Below, piece by piece: positions 982 through 37,034 of a stretch of 64,000 nt of DNA. The first letter of the stretch is position 1; each line of letters starts with the position of its first letter. The stretch comes from Tetmemena sp. SeJ-2015. Taxonomy: Eukaryota > Ciliophora > Spirotrichea > Sporadotrichida > Oxytrichidae. The notes under the pieces were generated by a model. It saw only the letters and a list, made by a program, of their open reading frames with translations. It was not told the origin of the DNA and made no database searches. Position numbers and translations under genes: made by a program. The DNA is taken from assembly GCA_027382625.1 (NCBI GenBank), contig JAJKFJ010022585.1, forward strand, positions 1 through 64,000, written 5' to 3'.

Positions 982-2359
982 ATGATAGTCACACTTTTAT
1001 ACCTTGTTCTAGCAGTAAATTTTTAGTTAAAATTTTCAGTTTTATTCAAGTCCATATAGGCAATAAGTTTCAAAACTGTGCGTTGGTTCTTTGATCCTTA
1101 CTTTAAATGGCGAAATCAGAAACTTAAGAAAGAGTAAAAACAAGAATTCAATAAAATATTATAGTATCGAACTCTACAATGAACCTTTATTTTTTTATTT
1201 TCTAAGAAAGAGCATATTTAAATGATGGGAAGCTTTTAGTGCTAGATGTGCCTTACTTATTGGACTCATCATCATTAAAAAAGGAAGATGAGGTTGACTT
1301 GTCTATCATAGTACCGGCTTTATATTTTATTAAAATGTATCTATCTTAGTATACAAATATATAAGCTTATAACGAAGAAAGTAGACTTCCTCCAATGATG
1401 GCAGAGACTATTGAAGTAAGAAACTCAGAAATTTACTCCATTTTAATAATTCCTAATAATTTTCTGATGAAATCCTTACAGAGGATATGTTTTAACAAAT
1501 TTATGAGAGTGCATACATATCTTAAATATCTTTGAATATAGTATGTGGAAAAGAAGTTAAAAGAAGGCAAGCTATTCAAAACAGTTGAAATAGTGATCGT
1601 TAACGATGGCTCTAAGGATAAAACAATGCAAATGATTCTTGATTACACTAAAAAATACCCAGTAAAGGCACTGAATGGCTAAAATAACAGTCTCTCAATT
1701 AGAGGTGTGAATTAAGTGCAAAACCAAGGAAAGGGAAGCGCAGTCAAGCAGGTACAAAAATATATAAACTCATAACTTAAATAGGGCAGCTTATACGCAA
1801 GAGGAACGCATATTCTGTTTGCAGATGCTGATGGTGCAACCGACATAAATGGTTTGGAAACTGTACTTCAAGAGTGCTAATCTATTGAGATAAATGGCAA
1901 AGGTTGCGCAATAGGATCAAGAAAGGAGGAGACTGCACAAGTTGAAGTAAGAATAATCTTATGAATAATTTCAATAGAGGAAAGGCTTGAGGGCTTTCTT
2001 ATCGTGGGGACTAAAAACGATTGTGAGGATAATACTTAAGAATAATATCAAGGATACTTAGTGTGGGTTCAAGATTTTCTCAAGAGAAGCAGCTAAATTG
2101 TGCTTCCCAACTCAACATTTAGAGAGATGGTCTTTTGATATTGAGCTACTCTATTTAATAATGAGAATGATGAATATGCCTTTTAAATTTGTTGGGGTAG
2201 CATAATGTGCCAGTGAGAGAGGTCGGAGTAATTTGGCACGAGGTAGATGGCTCTCACTTAAATGTGATAGACGCAACTCTTCAAATGCTAAGAGACATGT
2301 TCCTTATTAAGTTGCTATACACTATTAGATTGTGGAAGACTTCTGACATAAGCTACTGA
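982..2359 (+). CDS. ALG5: Dolichyl-phosphate beta-glucosyltransferase (ALG5), split by IESs and introns
   Basis: GT-A family 2 glycosyltransferase that moves glucose from UDP-glucose to dolichyl phosphate on the cytosolic face of the ER, supplying donor for N-glycan assembly. The start [14 protein letters not shown] gives the N-terminal membrane anchor typical of ALG5. Then come [51 protein letters not shown] (metal-binding DxD), [23 protein letters not shown] and [11 protein letters not shown], all hallmark motifs in family order. IESs have pointers GCTT (1317/1365) and TGAAT (1672/1708), plus a probable one with pointer AA near 1170. GT-AG introns are 1416-1541, 1752-1784 and 1947-1977. A small unexplained frame change sits near 2205. 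The TGA stop is 2357-2359. Length and domain order match eukaryotic ALG5. Confidence 0.93.
1317..1364. other. IES in ALG5, pointer GCTT
   Basis: 48-bp AT-rich insert splitting the IVPAYNEES motif. The direct repeat GCTT is at 1317-1320 and 1365-1368; removing one copy plus the insert restores P-A-Y-N-E-E. Confidence 0.92.
1672..1707. other. IES in ALG5, pointer TGAAT
   Basis: 36-bp insert between repeats TGAAT at 1672-1676 and 1708-1712. Removal gives [14 protein letters not shown], in frame with the GKGxAV motif of the family. Confidence 0.9.
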
Positions 2360-26609: not shown

Positions 26610-29041
26610 TCATAGTTTCCCTCTAATTAAAGGCATTATATTTTCTTAAAATCCTTTTATGAGTTTTGGCTAGTTTAAGGAACTTCTTCTTGCTGCGTCT
26701 AATTAGGTTTGGTAAACATCCCCATATGAGTTACCGATATTTGATTAAAGGAACTCATCAGGGATATCACATGCCTCAACCATAGGTATCATTGAGGGTC
26801 TTGATGATTATAATTTGACATTATAATCATTCGTAAAGAGCAGAGTTGTTTTGAAGGATGTCATTGATAGCAAAAAGACGCAGAAGATTTGTGAGATGAT
26901 ATTTGAGACGATCACATTTTATGAATCCCTAAGTATCTAATTTGCTTTTGAAAATTTTGAATGTCATCAAGATAATGTGAGCTCTAAATTAATTGACAAA
27001 AATTAACTCTGGTCATCTAGATAATTTCAAGAGCAAATATTGAATGAGTCTTTTTACTTCCTGATGCTTAGCTTTCTTTCATCTTCTTTGAAGCATTAAA
27101 ATCTTTATTAGATAAATAAAAAAATTTAGAGTTTAAATTTGAAAGAGAATAATTGAATAGTGACCTTAAAAATTTAGCAAGATGATTAATTTTAAGTTCT
27201 TAATAAAATTTTATCTCAAAATTGAGATGATCCTTGTTAAAAACATTAAACATTAAAAAGTAGATGCAGACAAAAGAGTAAATAATTACTTACACTAACA
27301 GCAGTATTACTCATTTTATTTTTATAATTCTCTTTAAATTCTCATTAATAATAAATTATAATTTTTAAAGCAGCTATGATTAAAAATCGAGCTCTTGATT
27401 CTAATGCCTTTTGTAACAACTCTAAATCATAGATTTCTTCAACTTACTTTATCTCTGGCATTTGATCTTAATCGTCGTTAAGATATGCAAATATTCCTTG
27501 AGCCTTCTTAGCTTTCAAAACTTCAAAAGCATTTTTGAAGATAAGTCTTGAAGATTGCTAGAGCATAACTATAGTGTCACCTTCGCCAGTAGCTGTTGGC
27601 AAAAATGTTAATTACAGAGGTCCTATAGCTTAAACTAATTAATTAACTTATTTATTAAGCATTACCACAGAGGAATGCAGCAGCCCCAATAGAGTCTCTA
27701 AGCATATCTATACCTTCGCAAGATGATTTAGTAAAATAAGCTTTCATCCCAGATGTGAGATGATGAAGGAGGTCTAGCTTGCTGAAATCACCTTTTTATG
27801 TATCTCTTAGAACTTATTAATGCATTTCTATTATTTCCAAACAGCAAAACCTCATAGCATAAATTAGAGCCAGCAAGTATCCATATTTTTGCATATGAGT
27901 CTAATAATCTAAAATCTTCCTCTCCTCCTTACTTTCATCTAGATAAATGAAATTAATTTCAATTTATCTAGAGTGCTAAACTATCTTCTGATGACTGAGT
28001 ATCTAGTTGCAATTAGTAAAGCCTATCCGAGAGTGAATGGAGAGTAGCACATAAGTTGAATTCTAGTAGCAACCATAATAGAGTAGAGGATTCTTTGGTC
28101 TCCTTTATTAATAACTACTCCATCTTTGCTTATTTCAATATACCTCCCTAAAAGATTTTCCCTTGGAACTCTCACGTTACTAAACCTTAAATATCCGTTT
28201 TCTTTGTCATTTACAATTATTTTAGGGCCAATATCGCCACATTCTATTCCATCCAACCTCTCGTGCGTCTCTCTATCTCTTATTTAAACTAAGAAAGCTT
28301 AGACTCCATAATCCTTTGAGTTTGATATCATTCTGGCATAAACGACTGCGTAATTTGCCATGATTCCCATCTCTCCAGGCCAGAACTTTGTAGATGTAAC
28401 AGTAGGGGAATCCAGAATAAACGATTCAGATTCTTTCTCATAAATTGCAGTTGTTTCAATTCCCTATATGCTGAGTACGACTTTATTAGCTTACAGCAAC
28501 ATTGGAGCCATGACCTAGTTCCGTTTATGCATAGCACCCTATGATCCTCATGCTTTTAATGAGAGGATCTAACTCAGCAACTTGCTAATCTGTGCCAAGA
28601 TTTTTTACGGCTTGCTAAAACATAGAAAAAGAGAGGCCAACAGGGCTCTATATTTTTGTTAATGGTTAAAATAGTGATTACCGTCCCTTGATAGATATAC
28701 CACGCCCATGAGTAGTAGTCGTTTTCATTTTCTAAGAACCAACCTGTTTTATCAATTTCATAAAGTCTTCTCACCCTTTAGAGATGTCTTTCAATTTATT
28801 ACTCTCTCGACTTCTCATAACAATCTGCATCTTTCCTCAGAATAGGATCACTAATTATTTATGAAACCTTATGATGCCAATCCTCGTAGACTTTTCTAGA
28901 CCCGAAAAATAGGTGAGATAACTCTTTTTAGTCAAAGTCTAAATTTTTGCGTTCCTCAAGCAAATCTGTGGCCACCACTTTATACAAATATAAAAAAAAA
29001 TATAAAACTTTATTTTCAATAGAGCCTGCTTTAAACTACAT
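26610..29041 (-). CDS. ACOX: Peroxisomal acyl-CoA oxidase, copy 1, scrambled germline form
   Basis: Flavoenzyme of peroxisomal beta-oxidation that converts acyl-CoA to trans-2-enoyl-CoA and makes H2O2. Seen in order: DLLEERKNLDFDQKEL, SPVGLSFSMFQQAVKNLGTD, CYAQTELGHGSNVAGIETTA, DSPTVTSTKFWPGEMG (FAD/substrate motifs), GPKIIVNDKENGYLRFSNVR, RRQFSTLDESKEERKILDYQ, SSCEGIDMLRDSIGAAAF, LPTATGEGDTIVMLQQSSR and the C-terminal VEACDIPDEFLQSNIGNSYG. It ends GKL with no plain SKL-type signal. Introns: 28464-28494 and 28648-28681. IESs use pointers ATAAAGT, TCTAGAT and GCT. The segment between ALYE and PMVEACD is missing here and lies at 29192-29279. Adjacent paralogue: 29383-31642. Confidence 0.93.
26802..26827. 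other. 26-bp IES marking the scrambled junction of ACOX copy 1
   Basis: Flanked by two different pointers, plus-strand TGAGGGTCT (26793-26801) and CATTCGTAAAGA (26828-26839). They do not match each other; each matches one end of the displaced segment at 29192-29279. This is the diagnostic of a scrambled junction. Confidence 0.92.
27944..27972. other. IES in ACOX copy 1, pointer TCTAGAT
   Basis: 29-bp insert; plus-strand ATCTAGA at 27937-27943 and 27966-27972. Removal gives FSTLDESKEERKILDYQ. Copy 2 has no IES here. Confidence 0.92.
28984..29013. other. IES at codon 12 of ACOX copy 1, pointer ATAAAGT
   Basis: 30-bp T-rich insert; plus-strand ACTTTAT at 28977-28983 and 29007-29013. It sits at the same place as the 31553-31600 IES of copy 2 (ENK|VVATDL versus DK|VVAQDL). 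Confidence 0.9.
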
Positions 29042-29191: not shown

Positions 29192-29279
29192 TGAGGGTCT
29201 GATGTCTTGTAGAAGTTAAGTCAATGCCTCCTGGAACAAATTCAACGAGCCACTTCTAAAGAATCCGCATTCGTAAAGA
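29192..29279 (-). CDS. ACOX: Displaced (scrambled) coding segment of ACOX copy 1
   Basis: 88-bp segment upstream of the copy 1 start codon, same strand. It encodes ECGFFRSGSLNLFQEALTQL then LQDIRPS, the helix that precedes the VEAxDIPDE block in acyl-CoA oxidases. Its 5' end carries TCTTTACGAATG and its 3' end AGACCCTCA (minus-strand sense). Both are found in the same orientation around the 26-bp IES at 26802-26827. Inserting the segment there gives ALYECGFF...IRPSMIPMVEACD with no frame break. Pointer lengths are 12 and 9 bp. It lies between the 3' end of copy 2 and the 5' end of copy 1. Confidence 0.94.
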
Positions 29280-29382: not shown

Positions 29383-31642
29383 TCAAAGTTTACCTCTTAT
29401 GATAGGAAGCATGTTTTCCTCAAATCCTTGTATAAAGTTGCTTTTATTTAAAGCACTCTGTCTGGCGTATTTTACAACTATTATATATAATAATTTCATT
29501 TTATTTGAAATATTGAAGCTGAGTGTCATAGATATCTCCGTAAGAGTTTCCAATTGCTGACTAAAGTTGCTCGTCAGGGATGTCAAAAGCCTCCACAAGT
29601 GGTATCATGAAGGGTCATCAAATTATTATATAATCCGCACTCATACAAAGCACAGTTATTCTTCACTAAGTCATTTATCGCAAACAGCTTTAGTAGTTAT
29701 GTTAGATGGTGATTAAGCCTTTGACACTTTATGGTATTTCTTTTGAGGAGGTTTTCTTTGAAGATACTAAATGTAATATAGAACAGGTGAGATTCATAAT
29801 AATTAAACAGATATATTATGAAGGAGATCTTGTCAAATTCATTATATCAATAGCATAAACCGAATTTAATCTGTCATTTTAACTTTCTTGGCTTTTTGCA
29901 AGCTTTTTGACAGTTTCAAAAATTTAGTAACTTGCTCTTAATCCGAGAGCCTAGTCCAAAATTTCTATATCTATCTTTAAAATAATATTGAATAAATTAT
30001 TTATCATTTAACCCTAAATCAAAGACGGCTTAGAATTTTGATTTTAAATTTGCTGCTAGTACTTATTAAGGTAGGCAAATATCCCGCTAGAAGGCTATCC
30101 TTTCAATACATTGATTGCTGTTTTAAGTATTAGTTTTGAGGATTACTAGAACATTACGATTGAATCTCCTTCAACGGTAGGGCTTGGAGAATAAGATAAA
30201 AGCAAGGGGCTAAGTAATTTTATAAAAAAAAAACGATAATAATTTAAAGTCCATTATAGGATAAGAAACCTGCCGCGCCCACAGAATCTCTTAAGGCATC
30301 TATCCCATCATAGGTTGATTTGGTAAAGAACGCTTTTATACCAGAAGTCAAATGATGCATCAACTCTAACTTGCTAATGTCACCACTTTTAATCTCTGAT
30401 AGAGTCTATCTATGGAGCTCTACTATCTCTAGAGCTGTAAATCTTTGAGCATAGACTAAGGCCAAAAGTGGAGCATACTTATGCATCTAGGTTTAATAAT
30501 CTAATATTTTTCTCTCAATCTGAGTTCCATCATGGGTAGAAAACTATCTTCTTAAAACTGAATACCTGGTAGCTATTAACAAGGCTTAAGATAGTGCCAC
30601 AGGAGATGTTGCTATGAATTGTATCCTTGTCTTAAGCATGACTGAGTAAAGAATCCTAGGATCTCCTTTTCTCTTTACTTTACCATCTTTAGATACCTCA
30701 ATATATCTTGCGAGAAGGCTTATCTTAGGAACTCTTGTGTTTGAAAACCTAAGATATCCATTTTCTTTTTCATTTACTGCCATCTTAGTACCAATATCTC
30801 CCCCTTCTATACCTTATAATAGCTGGTGAGAGTCTAGATCTCTAAGTTGGACCATGAATGGCTAAACGCCATGATCTTTTCCGCTTGATAACAATCGTGC
30901 ATAAATGATAGCATAGTTAGATATTTTACCAATCTCACCAGGCCAAAATTTTGTCGACGTCACTGTTGGAGAATTCAATATAAATGTCTCACTTTCTTAG
31001 TCATAGGTTGCAGTCGTCTCTATTCCCTAAAGTAATATCATTGGAGAGTTTTATATATTACAGAAACGTTGGAGCCGTGCCCTAATTCAGTTTAGCCATA
31101 ACATCCTAAGATTCTTAACTTCTTAATATCCTCCATCCATAGTTTCTTCTAATCATCAGAAGATAGACTTTCAACTGCTGTGTAAAACATAGTTAGAGTT
31201 AAACTCAGAGGGTACTATAGAACTTAGTTAAAAAAGAGGAAGAAATTATTACATTTCCATGATAAACATAGTAAATCCAATGGTGGTAGTCATTCTCGTT
31301 TTACAAAAAGTATTTCTCCTTATTGATTTCGTAGAGTCTTCTCACAATTTGGAGATATCTTTCGAGTTACTGTTATCTCGTCATCTCAAACCAGGTGTGA
31401 TCTCTTCTCAAAATGGGATCTTAAATAATTAGAGAGACTAGATCGTGATAATCTTAGTGAATCTACTTCGATCCAAAGAGCAGATAAGTTAACTCTTTTT
31501 AGTCGAAGTCTAGATTTTTTCTCTCCTCTATCAAATCTTGAGCTACAACTTTAAAATTAAAGCATTATATTAGCTTCTTTCAATAATTGTAACAAACTTT
31601 ATCTTTAATAGATCCTAGTGTCGGGGGTTTCGAAATATCCAT
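29383..31642 (-). CDS. ACOX: Peroxisomal acyl-CoA oxidase, copy 2, scrambled germline form
   Basis: Tandem paralogue of the gene at 26610-29041. The start is MDISKPPTLGSIKDKV, then QDLIEERKNLDFDQKEL, CYGQTELGHGSNVSGIETTA, NSPTVTSTKFWPGEIG, TKMAVNEKENGYLRFSNTR, RRQFSTHDGTQIERKILDYQ, YDGIDALRDSVGAAGF, SPTVEGDSIVMFQQSSK and VEAFDIPDEQLQSAIGNSYG, ending IIRGKL at the TGA complement 29383-29385. Both introns sit at the same positions as in copy 1 but differ in sequence. IES pointers include AAAGTT (N-terminus) and AAATA (near 29500). The helix between ALYECG and PLVEAFD is absent and lies at 31709-31832. Sequence divergence from copy 1 suggests an old duplication. Confidence 0.93.
29617..29631. 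other. 15-bp IES marking the scrambled junction of ACOX copy 2
   Basis: Flanked by unmatched pointers, plus-strand ATCATGAAGGGTC (29604-29616) and AATCCGCACTC (29632-29642). Each matches one end of the segment at 31709-31832. Confidence 0.92.
31553..31600. other. IES at N-terminus of ACOX copy 2, pointer AAAGTT
   Basis: 48-bp insert; plus-strand AACTTT at 31547-31552 and 31595-31600. Removal gives IKDKVVAQDLIEER. Confidence 0.9.
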
Positions 31643-31708
31643 TTTTATATTTTAATATCTTAAGATTTTCTCTCGGAATAAATATTTTTTCGATTAAAAA
31701 TAAAAATG

Positions 31709-31832
31709 ATCATGAAGGGTCTAATTTCTTTGAGTAAGATGGTCAAAGAGTCTGATAATAATTCAATAGAAATATTTAATTAACAAAACTAAAATGTTTA
31801 TAAATAGTCCCTGGCTTGAAGAATCCGCACTC
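31709..31832 (-). CDS. ACOX: Displaced (scrambled) coding segment of ACOX copy 2
   Basis: 124-bp segment upstream of the copy 2 start, same strand. Its ends carry GAGTGCGGATT (11 bp) and GACCCTTCATGAT (13 bp), identical to the pointers around 29617-29631. It contains its own small IES (pointer CTAT). After that is removed it encodes ECGFFKPGTIELLSDSLTIL then LKEIRPFMI, which fits in frame between ALYECG and PLVEAFDIPDE. The relative position is the same as the displaced segment of copy 1. Confidence 0.93.
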
Positions 31833-34991: not shown

Positions 34992-36971
34992 ATGATGAGC
35001 ATGAGCCACAACCCTTAATCCTTCTTCAATACCTCAACAGGGTAGAGTTAACTTTCATCAATAAATGGCTCCCCTTCAAGAAGATAGGGAATCAGCACTT
35101 ATGATTCCAAATTTAAAGGACTTTAAAACGACATTGGAGTGAATAACTGCTTTGTGAACGTGGTCATTTAATCTTTGTGGCATCTTTACAGCTTCAGAGT
35201 GAACTTTCTCGGCTACAAAAACCACAGACACTCATTTAACTCTTTTAAATTGAAATGTAAGTGCTTATTTCTCACTCAGACAAGGAAATATACTTGAGAG
35301 TCAGGACCTAACAGATCATATAGCAACGAAAAAGAAGTAATAGCATTTAAGTCCAGCCTACTGATCTACCACAGACTAATTACTTAAACTCGACTAACAA
35401 TCTATAGACAACAATCAAAATTCTTCTGCAAGGGATCATTCAAACAGTCAAAGTTAGAATGCTGCAGAAATAGAGGAAGAAAAGTAATCACTTACCAAGA
35501 TTAACAGAAAATAGGAGTAGCGAAAAGGAGATGTTGATAGTATGAGTGATGATATCTAGTCCGGACAAATAAAGTCTCACAAAGATGATTTTGGGATTGA
35601 TTATTCACTTTTCTAACCAATTCTGACAAATGAGGAGATGGAATAATTGCAAACAGAAACCAAAGATAAAAAAGTGAAGGAGTTTCGAAAGAAAGTCAAA
35701 GAAAGCGACATCTGCATCTTTTGTAATTTACAGGACTTGTTCACGCGCTATGAATACGGAAGCAGCAAAGTTCTTGAGCCTTCAAAAGTCAGGCAAAGTC
35801 TCGAAAGCATATTTGCTAGCAACACTGATTTATTAATAAGAAGTTATTTAAGATTTATAAAACTTTTCATTGAATTAAAAAAAAATGAATCAATAAATCT
35901 ACTACTGATTTTCAGTTTGGAGCGATGGGATGTGCCTAGGAAACTCTGGAAGATATCCTAAACTATTTGCACAGAGAATACACATATCCAAATTACATTG
36001 AAGAGTACCTTTTAATGGACAAAGATTCTAAGTTTAAGCTAGACAACGAACTTGATGAGTAAGGGTGCGCTCCAAAGTGTCCCTCTCACTAGACCTTTGG
36101 CTAAGAAGTTTGCGAAATAACTTCTTGCAGAAAGTGTAATAGTCTTGGATAGATTTCTTAAATAAGAAGATAGTTTGTTCATCTACATTTTAAATATGTT
36201 ATTCGAATATTAATCTTTCATCAAGTGTATGTTAGTGAGCTCTTGCAGACTATAAAAGAATACAATATCGATAAATTAGAGTTCGAAAAAGGACTCAAGA
36301 AAATCATTCTCCGAGAGGCTGAGTTCCATCTTCAATACTAAGAAATTTTTAAGCTTTTTAATATATCCTTATTATGATTAAGAGCAAACTATCTGTCCAA
36401 AATGCAGCATTCCTTTAAAAGTTCAAGATAAGTGGTTGCTGGAATTGCCAAACATCTACACTTTTAACTTCGTCTATGATTAAAATGAGAGCCCAGGAGA
36501 GAGAAAACTTAGAATAGAGGAAATTTTTTCGATTTTGCCAAATAAGATAAATTTGGATTCTTTTCTAAGAGTAGGAGAGTAACTTAACAAGAATAACACA
36601 TATGTTTTAAGAGGAATGATAACTTACTATGGTAGGCACTATATCGCTTATTTCTACTCTGAAAAGCATGATACTTGGTTCCAATTCAACGATGAGCATA
36701 TCAAGTCTATTGGCAATTTCAAAGAGGTGCAAAGAAAGTGTGTCCAGGGAAGTAGCAGCCAACTACAATATTCTATGAATCAGAGGAAATTCTAAGTATG
36801 GTATTAGATGGAGAAGAAAGCAAATAAGAGGAGGACCAAAAGTAGAAGAAGAAAAAGGTTAAAGAAAACAAAAAATATTACTTCCAAGATAAAAGACTCT
36901 TAACCAACAATTTTATCAGTTATTTAATGCTTATTTTAATAAAAAGACAATTTTTGGATATATTAAGCTGA
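34992..36971 (+). CDS. Ubiquitin carboxyl-terminal hydrolase-like (UBP/USP53-54 type)
   Basis: Peptidase C19 family. After MMSMSHNPQSFFNTSTG comes the Cys box GLQNDIGVNNCFVNVVIQSL with the nucleophile Cys present. Further on are a probable zinc-finger pair (DICIFCNLQDL; GCAPKCPSHQ, SCRKCNS, TICPKCS), FQFGAMGCAQETLEDILNYL and the His box YYGRHYIAYFYSEKHDTWFQ then FNDEHIKSIG. The order resembles plant UBP-related and animal USP53/54 proteins. IES pointers are ACTGATTT (35824/35904) and TAAGA (36339/36379). A 23-nt GT-AG intron starts near 35258. A one-base frame change at the GGG of 36747-36749 separates the His-box domain from the Lys-rich C-terminus ending at TGA 36969-36971. The catalytic Cys and His are visible, so activity is plausible. 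Confidence 0.85.
35824..35903. other. IES in ubiquitin-hydrolase gene, pointer ACTGATTT
   Basis: 80-bp insert between 8-bp repeats at 35824-35831 and 35904-35911. Removal joins FASNTD to FQFGAMGCAQE. Confidence 0.92.
36339..36378. other. IES in ubiquitin-hydrolase gene, pointer TAAGA
   Basis: 40-bp insert between TAAGA at 36339-36343 and 36379-36383. Removal gives FHLQYQEQTICPKCS. Confidence 0.9.
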
Positions 36972-37034
36972 CGAAAATAAAGGATGCTACATGTTTTAGT
37001 GAAAATAACCTTAAATTTATTTTATAAAATTAGG

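Follow-up and report, generated by a model that had tools for sequence, protein, structure and literature searches.

When two neighbouring germline genes lack the same piece of coding sequence, and each keeps that piece at the same place outside its main locus, was the gene scrambled once, before it was duplicated, or twice? This question was raised by a 64-kb window (the whole stretch of DNA analysed, contig C3221, with a G+C content of 30%) within an assembly that we searched (146.2 Mb in 5213 contigs). The minus strand of the window carries two acyl-CoA oxidase genes in tandem, in germline form, which are read with the ciliate code in which TAA and TAG encode glutamine (table 6). The order along this strand is D2, gene 2, D1, gene 1, where D stands for a displaced MDS, and the stop of copy 2 is 341 bp from the start of copy 1. 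Near the C terminus, a stretch of about 29 codons is absent from each main locus. That piece was found a short way upstream on the same strand, with 66 bp between D2 (124 bp long) and the start codon and 150 bp in the case of D1 (88 bp long), so that the two copies share the relative genomic position assigned to them by an earlier, sequence-only reading of this DNA. The features are collected in Table 1. Elsewhere in the window, positions 35365 to 37002 of the plus strand hold a table-6 frame with a ubiquitin carboxyl-terminal hydrolase domain (PF00443, E 3.5e-8).

Table 1. Features of the two scrambled copies (positions in the window) and pointer pairs that overlap between them (columns of the codon alignment).
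Feature	Position	Strand	Details
Copy 2, main locus	29383..31642	-	ATG 31642; TGA 29385-29383; two GT-AG introns; 690 aa including D2
Copy 2, ordinary IES pointers	main locus 29383..31642	-	TAAAGTT, ACTT, ATCTC, AATA
Copy 2, displaced MDS (D2)	31709..31832	-	pointers GAGTGCGGATT 31832-31822 and GACCCTTCATGAT 31721-31709
D2, internal IES	31803-31770	-	34 bp between CTAT pointers (34 bp plus one CTAT)
Copy 2, scrambled junction in main locus	29604..29642	-	GAGTGCGGATT 29642-29632; 15-bp IES; GACCCTTCATGAT 29616-29604
Copy 1, main locus	26610..29041	-	ATG 29041; TGA 26612-26610; two GT-AG introns; 671 aa including D1
Copy 1, ordinary IES pointers	main locus 26610..29041	-	ATAAAGT, TCTAGAT, GCT, GCTT, AGAG
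Copy 1, displaced MDS (D1)	29192..29279	-	pointers TCTTTACGAATG 29279-29268 and AGACCCTCA 29200-29192; without internal IES
Copy 1, scrambled junction in main locus	26793..26839	-	TCTTTACGAATG 26839-26828; 26-bp IES; AGACCCTCA 26801-26793
Overlapping pair (copy 1/copy 2) ATAAAGT/TAAAGTT			start offset 1 column
Overlapping pair (copy 1/copy 2) GCT/ACTT			start offset 2 columns
Overlapping pair (copy 1/copy 2) AGAG/ATCTC			start offset 2 columns
Overlapping pair (copy 1/copy 2) TCTTTACGAATG/GAGTGCGGATT	columns 1802-1813 vs 1809-1819		start offset 7 columns
Overlapping pair (copy 1/copy 2) AGACCCTCA/GACCCTTCATGAT	columns 1881-1889 vs 1882-1894		start offset 1 column

In both copies a germline segment was out of order, and the frame was complete only once that segment had been inserted. 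Joined at the pointers, copy 2 gave a 690-aa frame that had no inner stop and ended in TGA, and copy 1 a 671-aa frame, likewise without an inner stop. When D2 was omitted, copy 2 ran into a stop at residue 607, and when it was read straight through the junction, the stop came at residue 623; for copy 1, the stop fell at residue 586 either way. A domain search found PF14749, PF02770, PF22924 and PF01756 above the Pfam cut-offs in both joined proteins. The gene model has seven pointers and two introns per copy, the ordinary pointers of the pair measuring 3 to 7 bp, and both introns lie at identical columns in the codon alignment of the two copies. The two GT...AG gaps called introns could, as judged by eye, alternatively be IESs with TA pointers. 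A possible further in-frame IES of copy 2, with the pointer GATA, was also picked out by eye near LIQGQMINNLFNIILKID; this candidate was kept inside the 690-aa model and left out of the pointer count.

The pointers matched at both ends of each displaced segment, giving four exact repeat pairs of 9 to 13 bp. For copy 2, the sequence-only reading had described an upstream segment re-inserted at a 15-bp IES (ATATAATAATTTGAT) by pointers of 11 and 13 bp, and both repeats proved to be exact. Each of GAGTGCGGATT, GACCCTTCATGAT, TCTTTACGAATG and AGACCCTCA occurred exactly twice within the 64 kb, and the mean numbers of matches after dinucleotide shuffling were 0.01, 0.00, 0.00 and 0.26, respectively. 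The 9-mer AGACCCTCA was weak on its own, with two matches in 3 of 100 shuffles. Because an open frame appears when the pieces are joined, we propose that each displaced MDS would be moved into its own gene and joined there at the pointers during development of the somatic nucleus. RNA templates, whose role is established in Oxytricha, would most likely guide the joining, a step that we infer for this locus. No somatic counterpart of the two genes turned up in the assembly, and the best protein relative was only 52% identical; therefore, the joins are predicted ones. This relative is a EukProt protein, which we take to be from Oxytricha, and a Stylonychia lemnae protein was 50% identical.

We then compared the two copies with each other. 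The proteins were identical at 399 of 671 positions (59.5%). The differences amounted to 0.757 per synonymous site and 0.265 per non-synonymous site; the synonymous sites have thus reached saturation, and the proteins are under constraint. When the codons were aligned, the scrambled junctions fell at homologous codons, which bears out the claim that they share one position in the protein, and pointers overlapped between the copies in five of the seven cases (Table 1). With the copy 1 pointers placed uniformly at random 20,000 times, a control that takes no account of base or codon preferences that pointers may have, the maximum was four overlaps, reached once. The scrambled pairs overlapped by 5 and 8 columns, with joint spans of 18 and 14. 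Homologous junctions with overlapping but shifted pointers, the mark of pointer sliding, were thus found for five pairs. The pointer sequences do differ between the copies, as had been ascribed to drift, but their boundaries are also shifted, by 1 to 7 columns, which goes beyond substitution. The pointers of copy 2 had also been called longer, and this was true of the second junction (13 versus 9 bp) but not of the first (11 versus 12 bp, maximal exact match). On one reading of the alignment, the ancestral repeats would have been at least as long as the joint spans and would have decayed from different ends; a stepwise sliding of the pointers would fit as well.

The other pointers were private to one copy. 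The extra IES with the CTAT pointer, recognized in copy 2 from the outset, lies inside D2, and D1 has none. Beyond what had been noticed before, the AATA IES was private to copy 2, and the TCTAGAT and GCTT IESs were private to copy 1. With its pointers included, the TCTAGAT IES (27972-27937, minus strand) is a near-palindrome: its gapped self-match spans 36 columns at 94%, and its ungapped self-match covers only 18 of 36 positions. The GCTT IES (27371-27095, minus strand) measures 277 bp including one pointer and is missing from copy 2.

The same site was examined in the relatives of the two genes. A PF01756 search of the assembly, restricted to the best candidates, gave 25 matches at 22 places, two of which were the window genes; some of the 22 places are probably alleles. 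The displaced piece corresponds to about positions 98-127 of the model, and to 101-121 between the pointers, as reckoned. At 17 of the 20 other places, the match was contiguous across 101-121. Fifteen of these 17 continued past 127, and the matches on C2070 and C2999 ended at 124 and 121, with the 3' junction outside these two matches. The other three places were copies of paralogue B, in which the piece kept its regular place, interrupted by one IES and closely followed by another. No scrambling at this site was seen at the 20 other places, seven of which were read letter by letter (paralogue A at three places, B at three and C at one). Paralogues A, B and C, which were 41-46% identical to the window pair, are acyl-CoA oxidase genes in a row on one strand of contig C2905 (about 45.2-59.0 kb), and the copies on C530, C4466 and C4973 are probable alleles of them.

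Two trees were built, with 20 and 15 proteins. The larger one comprised 14 rows of the 25-row table and six other relatives; two A alleles, one B allele and one C allele were left out, as were C2797, C1943, C2579, C666, both C1719 rows and P0013. The smaller one comprised 12 table rows and three others, the other B allele and C2898 being left out additionally. The columns of the displaced piece were kept in both trees, and the paralogue rows were strings of six-frame matches, which may include a few IES-encoded residues. The phylogeny of the two proteins, by which the sequence-only reading had hoped to place the duplication, joined copies 1 and 2 as sisters with 100/100 in both trees. The sister pair adjoined the Stylonychia lemnae protein and the EukProt protein (100/99 and 95/98), and paralogues A, B and C stood separately. 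Forcing copy 1 or copy 2 to group with those two Stylonychia-type proteins was rejected (p-AU 1.5e-8 and 1.9e-64), and uniting both copies with A, B and C in one clade was rejected too (p-AU 0.002).

The homologous positions of the junctions, the phylogeny and the paralogues, unscrambled as far as seen at the 20 other places, argue together for a shared ancestry of the scrambling. On these sequence comparisons, one scrambling event, followed by tandem duplication of the whole unit and then by independent drift of the pointers, with the joins as predicted, is very probably the history of the locus. Scrambling before the duplication, as had been proposed, and on the stem of the pair would be the simplest course. 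An old scrambled germline gene would have been duplicated in tandem as one unit, displaced MDS and gene together. After the duplication, the repeats of each junction would have stayed matched within each copy, and the exact repeat window would have slid.

Could the two copies instead have been scrambled independently at a hot spot, for example by array rearrangements that left a C-terminal remnant right ahead of the gene that follows? No similarity was seen between the flanks of D1 and those of D2, which would suit such an origin, and in paralogue B an ordinary IES with a TTGT pointer lies, by eye, 5 nt past the 3' end of the second pointer of copy 2; therefore, IESs can arise near this site. 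Against this, both scrambled junctions coincide within a few nucleotides, three ordinary junctions coincide too, and the two displaced pieces are placed alike, on the strand of the gene and a short way ahead of its start codon (66 and 150 bp). Independent scrambling at one site is thus unlikely. As a trace of the origin of D1 and D2, residual homology around them was sought in 48 nested flank comparisons, 32 of which set displaced against main locus, and none was seen beyond the pointers (a single comparison below p 0.05, at 0.036, uncorrected); the exchanged IES and MDS themselves did not lend themselves to alignment, the IESs being too short. An in-frame LKNCCN upstream of D1 had been a candidate for a gene-like remnant and was dropped, the lowest p being 0.036, uncorrected, in 48 register comparisons.

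Neighbouring genes are a setting in which gene conversion is generally possible, and these two adjoin, 341 bp apart, so that conversion or a partial duplication might have given one copy the scrambled pattern of the other. No recent tract was seen, and the longest run of identity across the 2013 aligned nt was 15 nt. The displaced piece was less alike than the rest of the gene, with amino acid identities of 0.455 versus 0.599 and third-position identities of 0.18 versus 0.42; within its 22 codons, second positions were conserved, being 0.82 identical versus 0.18 for third positions. An event that predated the saturation of synonymous sites would look the same as duplication, and we regard a transfer of this kind as a slim chance.

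A decayed relative of the upstream end of copy 2 was found at C3466:45053-45527, with 337 of 481 columns identical. It contains, in the same order as in copy 2, a portion of the first two MDSs together with their intervening IES, the spacer and D2, and it carries the sequence of the internal IES of D2. Its pointers are no longer exact. D2 alone scored 48 against this piece and D1 scored 12; among 2000 slices drawn at random from the window, of which some may overlap D2, the top score was 38. The fragment has the appearance of a germline copy that arose once the scrambled layout and the D2 IES were present. Since it repeats the layout of copy 2, a misassembly of that layout is unlikely. The fragment also documents that such debris is present in the genome, as would be expected if both genes were germline pseudogenes with broken C termini and the upstream pieces mere debris, but this is scarcely credible given that neither full frame is interrupted and every predicted join preserves the frame, that non-synonymous differences stand at 0.265 versus 0.757 for synonymous ones, and that each piece fits exactly, its repeat pairs having no further match in 64 kb.

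Returning to a unit scrambled once and then duplicated, the array can serve as a natural test of what picks the joining partner (pointers, distance or RNA templates), since the homologous piece closest to the junction is not the one that belongs there. The junction of gene 2 lies 325 bp from D1, the wrong piece, and 2067 bp from D2, the right one. Its ends have 8 bp (TGCGGATT) and 6 bp (GACCCT) in common with D1, versus 11 and 13 bp with D2. Since ordinary pointers are only 3 to 7 bp long, pointer length alone would not obviously block the wrong join. If both genes assemble cleanly, we tentatively suggest that neither proximity nor a short pointer match selects the partner, and that selection against chimeric joins may have held the pointers of the two copies apart. 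Template guidance, known from Oxytricha and named by Feng et al. 2022 (PMC9797194), would explain the fidelity of joining here.

If our reading is true, scrambling predates the duplication, and a scrambled unit was duplicated, with two matched pointer pairs held in each copy through synonymous saturation. This makes the locus an internal comparison, in which the nucleus, the machinery and the array are the same for both copies. Among the literature matches listed, none reported tandem paralogues with homologous scrambled junctions, which is no proof of absence. MDSs have also been mapped for duplicated genes that share a germline locus, namely the tandem ABCB genes of Uroleptopsis citrina and Oxytricha trifallax, each set from one micronuclear locus (PMC10547551); those genes are unscrambled, unlike ours. 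In the model of Gao et al. 2015, as described in PMC9797194, scrambling arises by local MDS duplication and decay. Our locus resembles it in that a displaced MDS replaces the IES between its neighbours in a family with local paralogues, but differs in that the exchanged IESs measure 15 and 26 bp versus 124 and 88 bp for the pieces, and in that no residual homology was found; the scrambling event may be too old for that test. At these lengths, odd-even scrambling by recent local MDS duplication was set aside as a candidate.

A close parallel is in the comparison of Oxytricha and Tetmemena by Feng et al. 2022 (PMC9797194). It gives 4448 conserved pointer positions, with most pointer sequences differing, and scrambled pointers that exceed ordinary ones in length and in conservation of position. 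Our two copies likewise kept the positions as the pointer sequences diverged, but the published comparison was made on single-copy orthologues, with paralogue pairs left out. Pointer sliding between orthologous scrambled genes goes back to DuBois and Prescott 1995, cited in the same paper, which also gives an explicit case in which the Oxytricha and Tetmemena pointers overlap by 8 bp. Here, too, shifted pointers overlap at homologous junctions, by 5 and 8 columns, with the difference that these are tandem paralogues of one genome and those were orthologues of two species. Therefore, sliding and conserved scrambled positions, already known in orthologues (PMC9797194), would be extended here to tandem paralogues.
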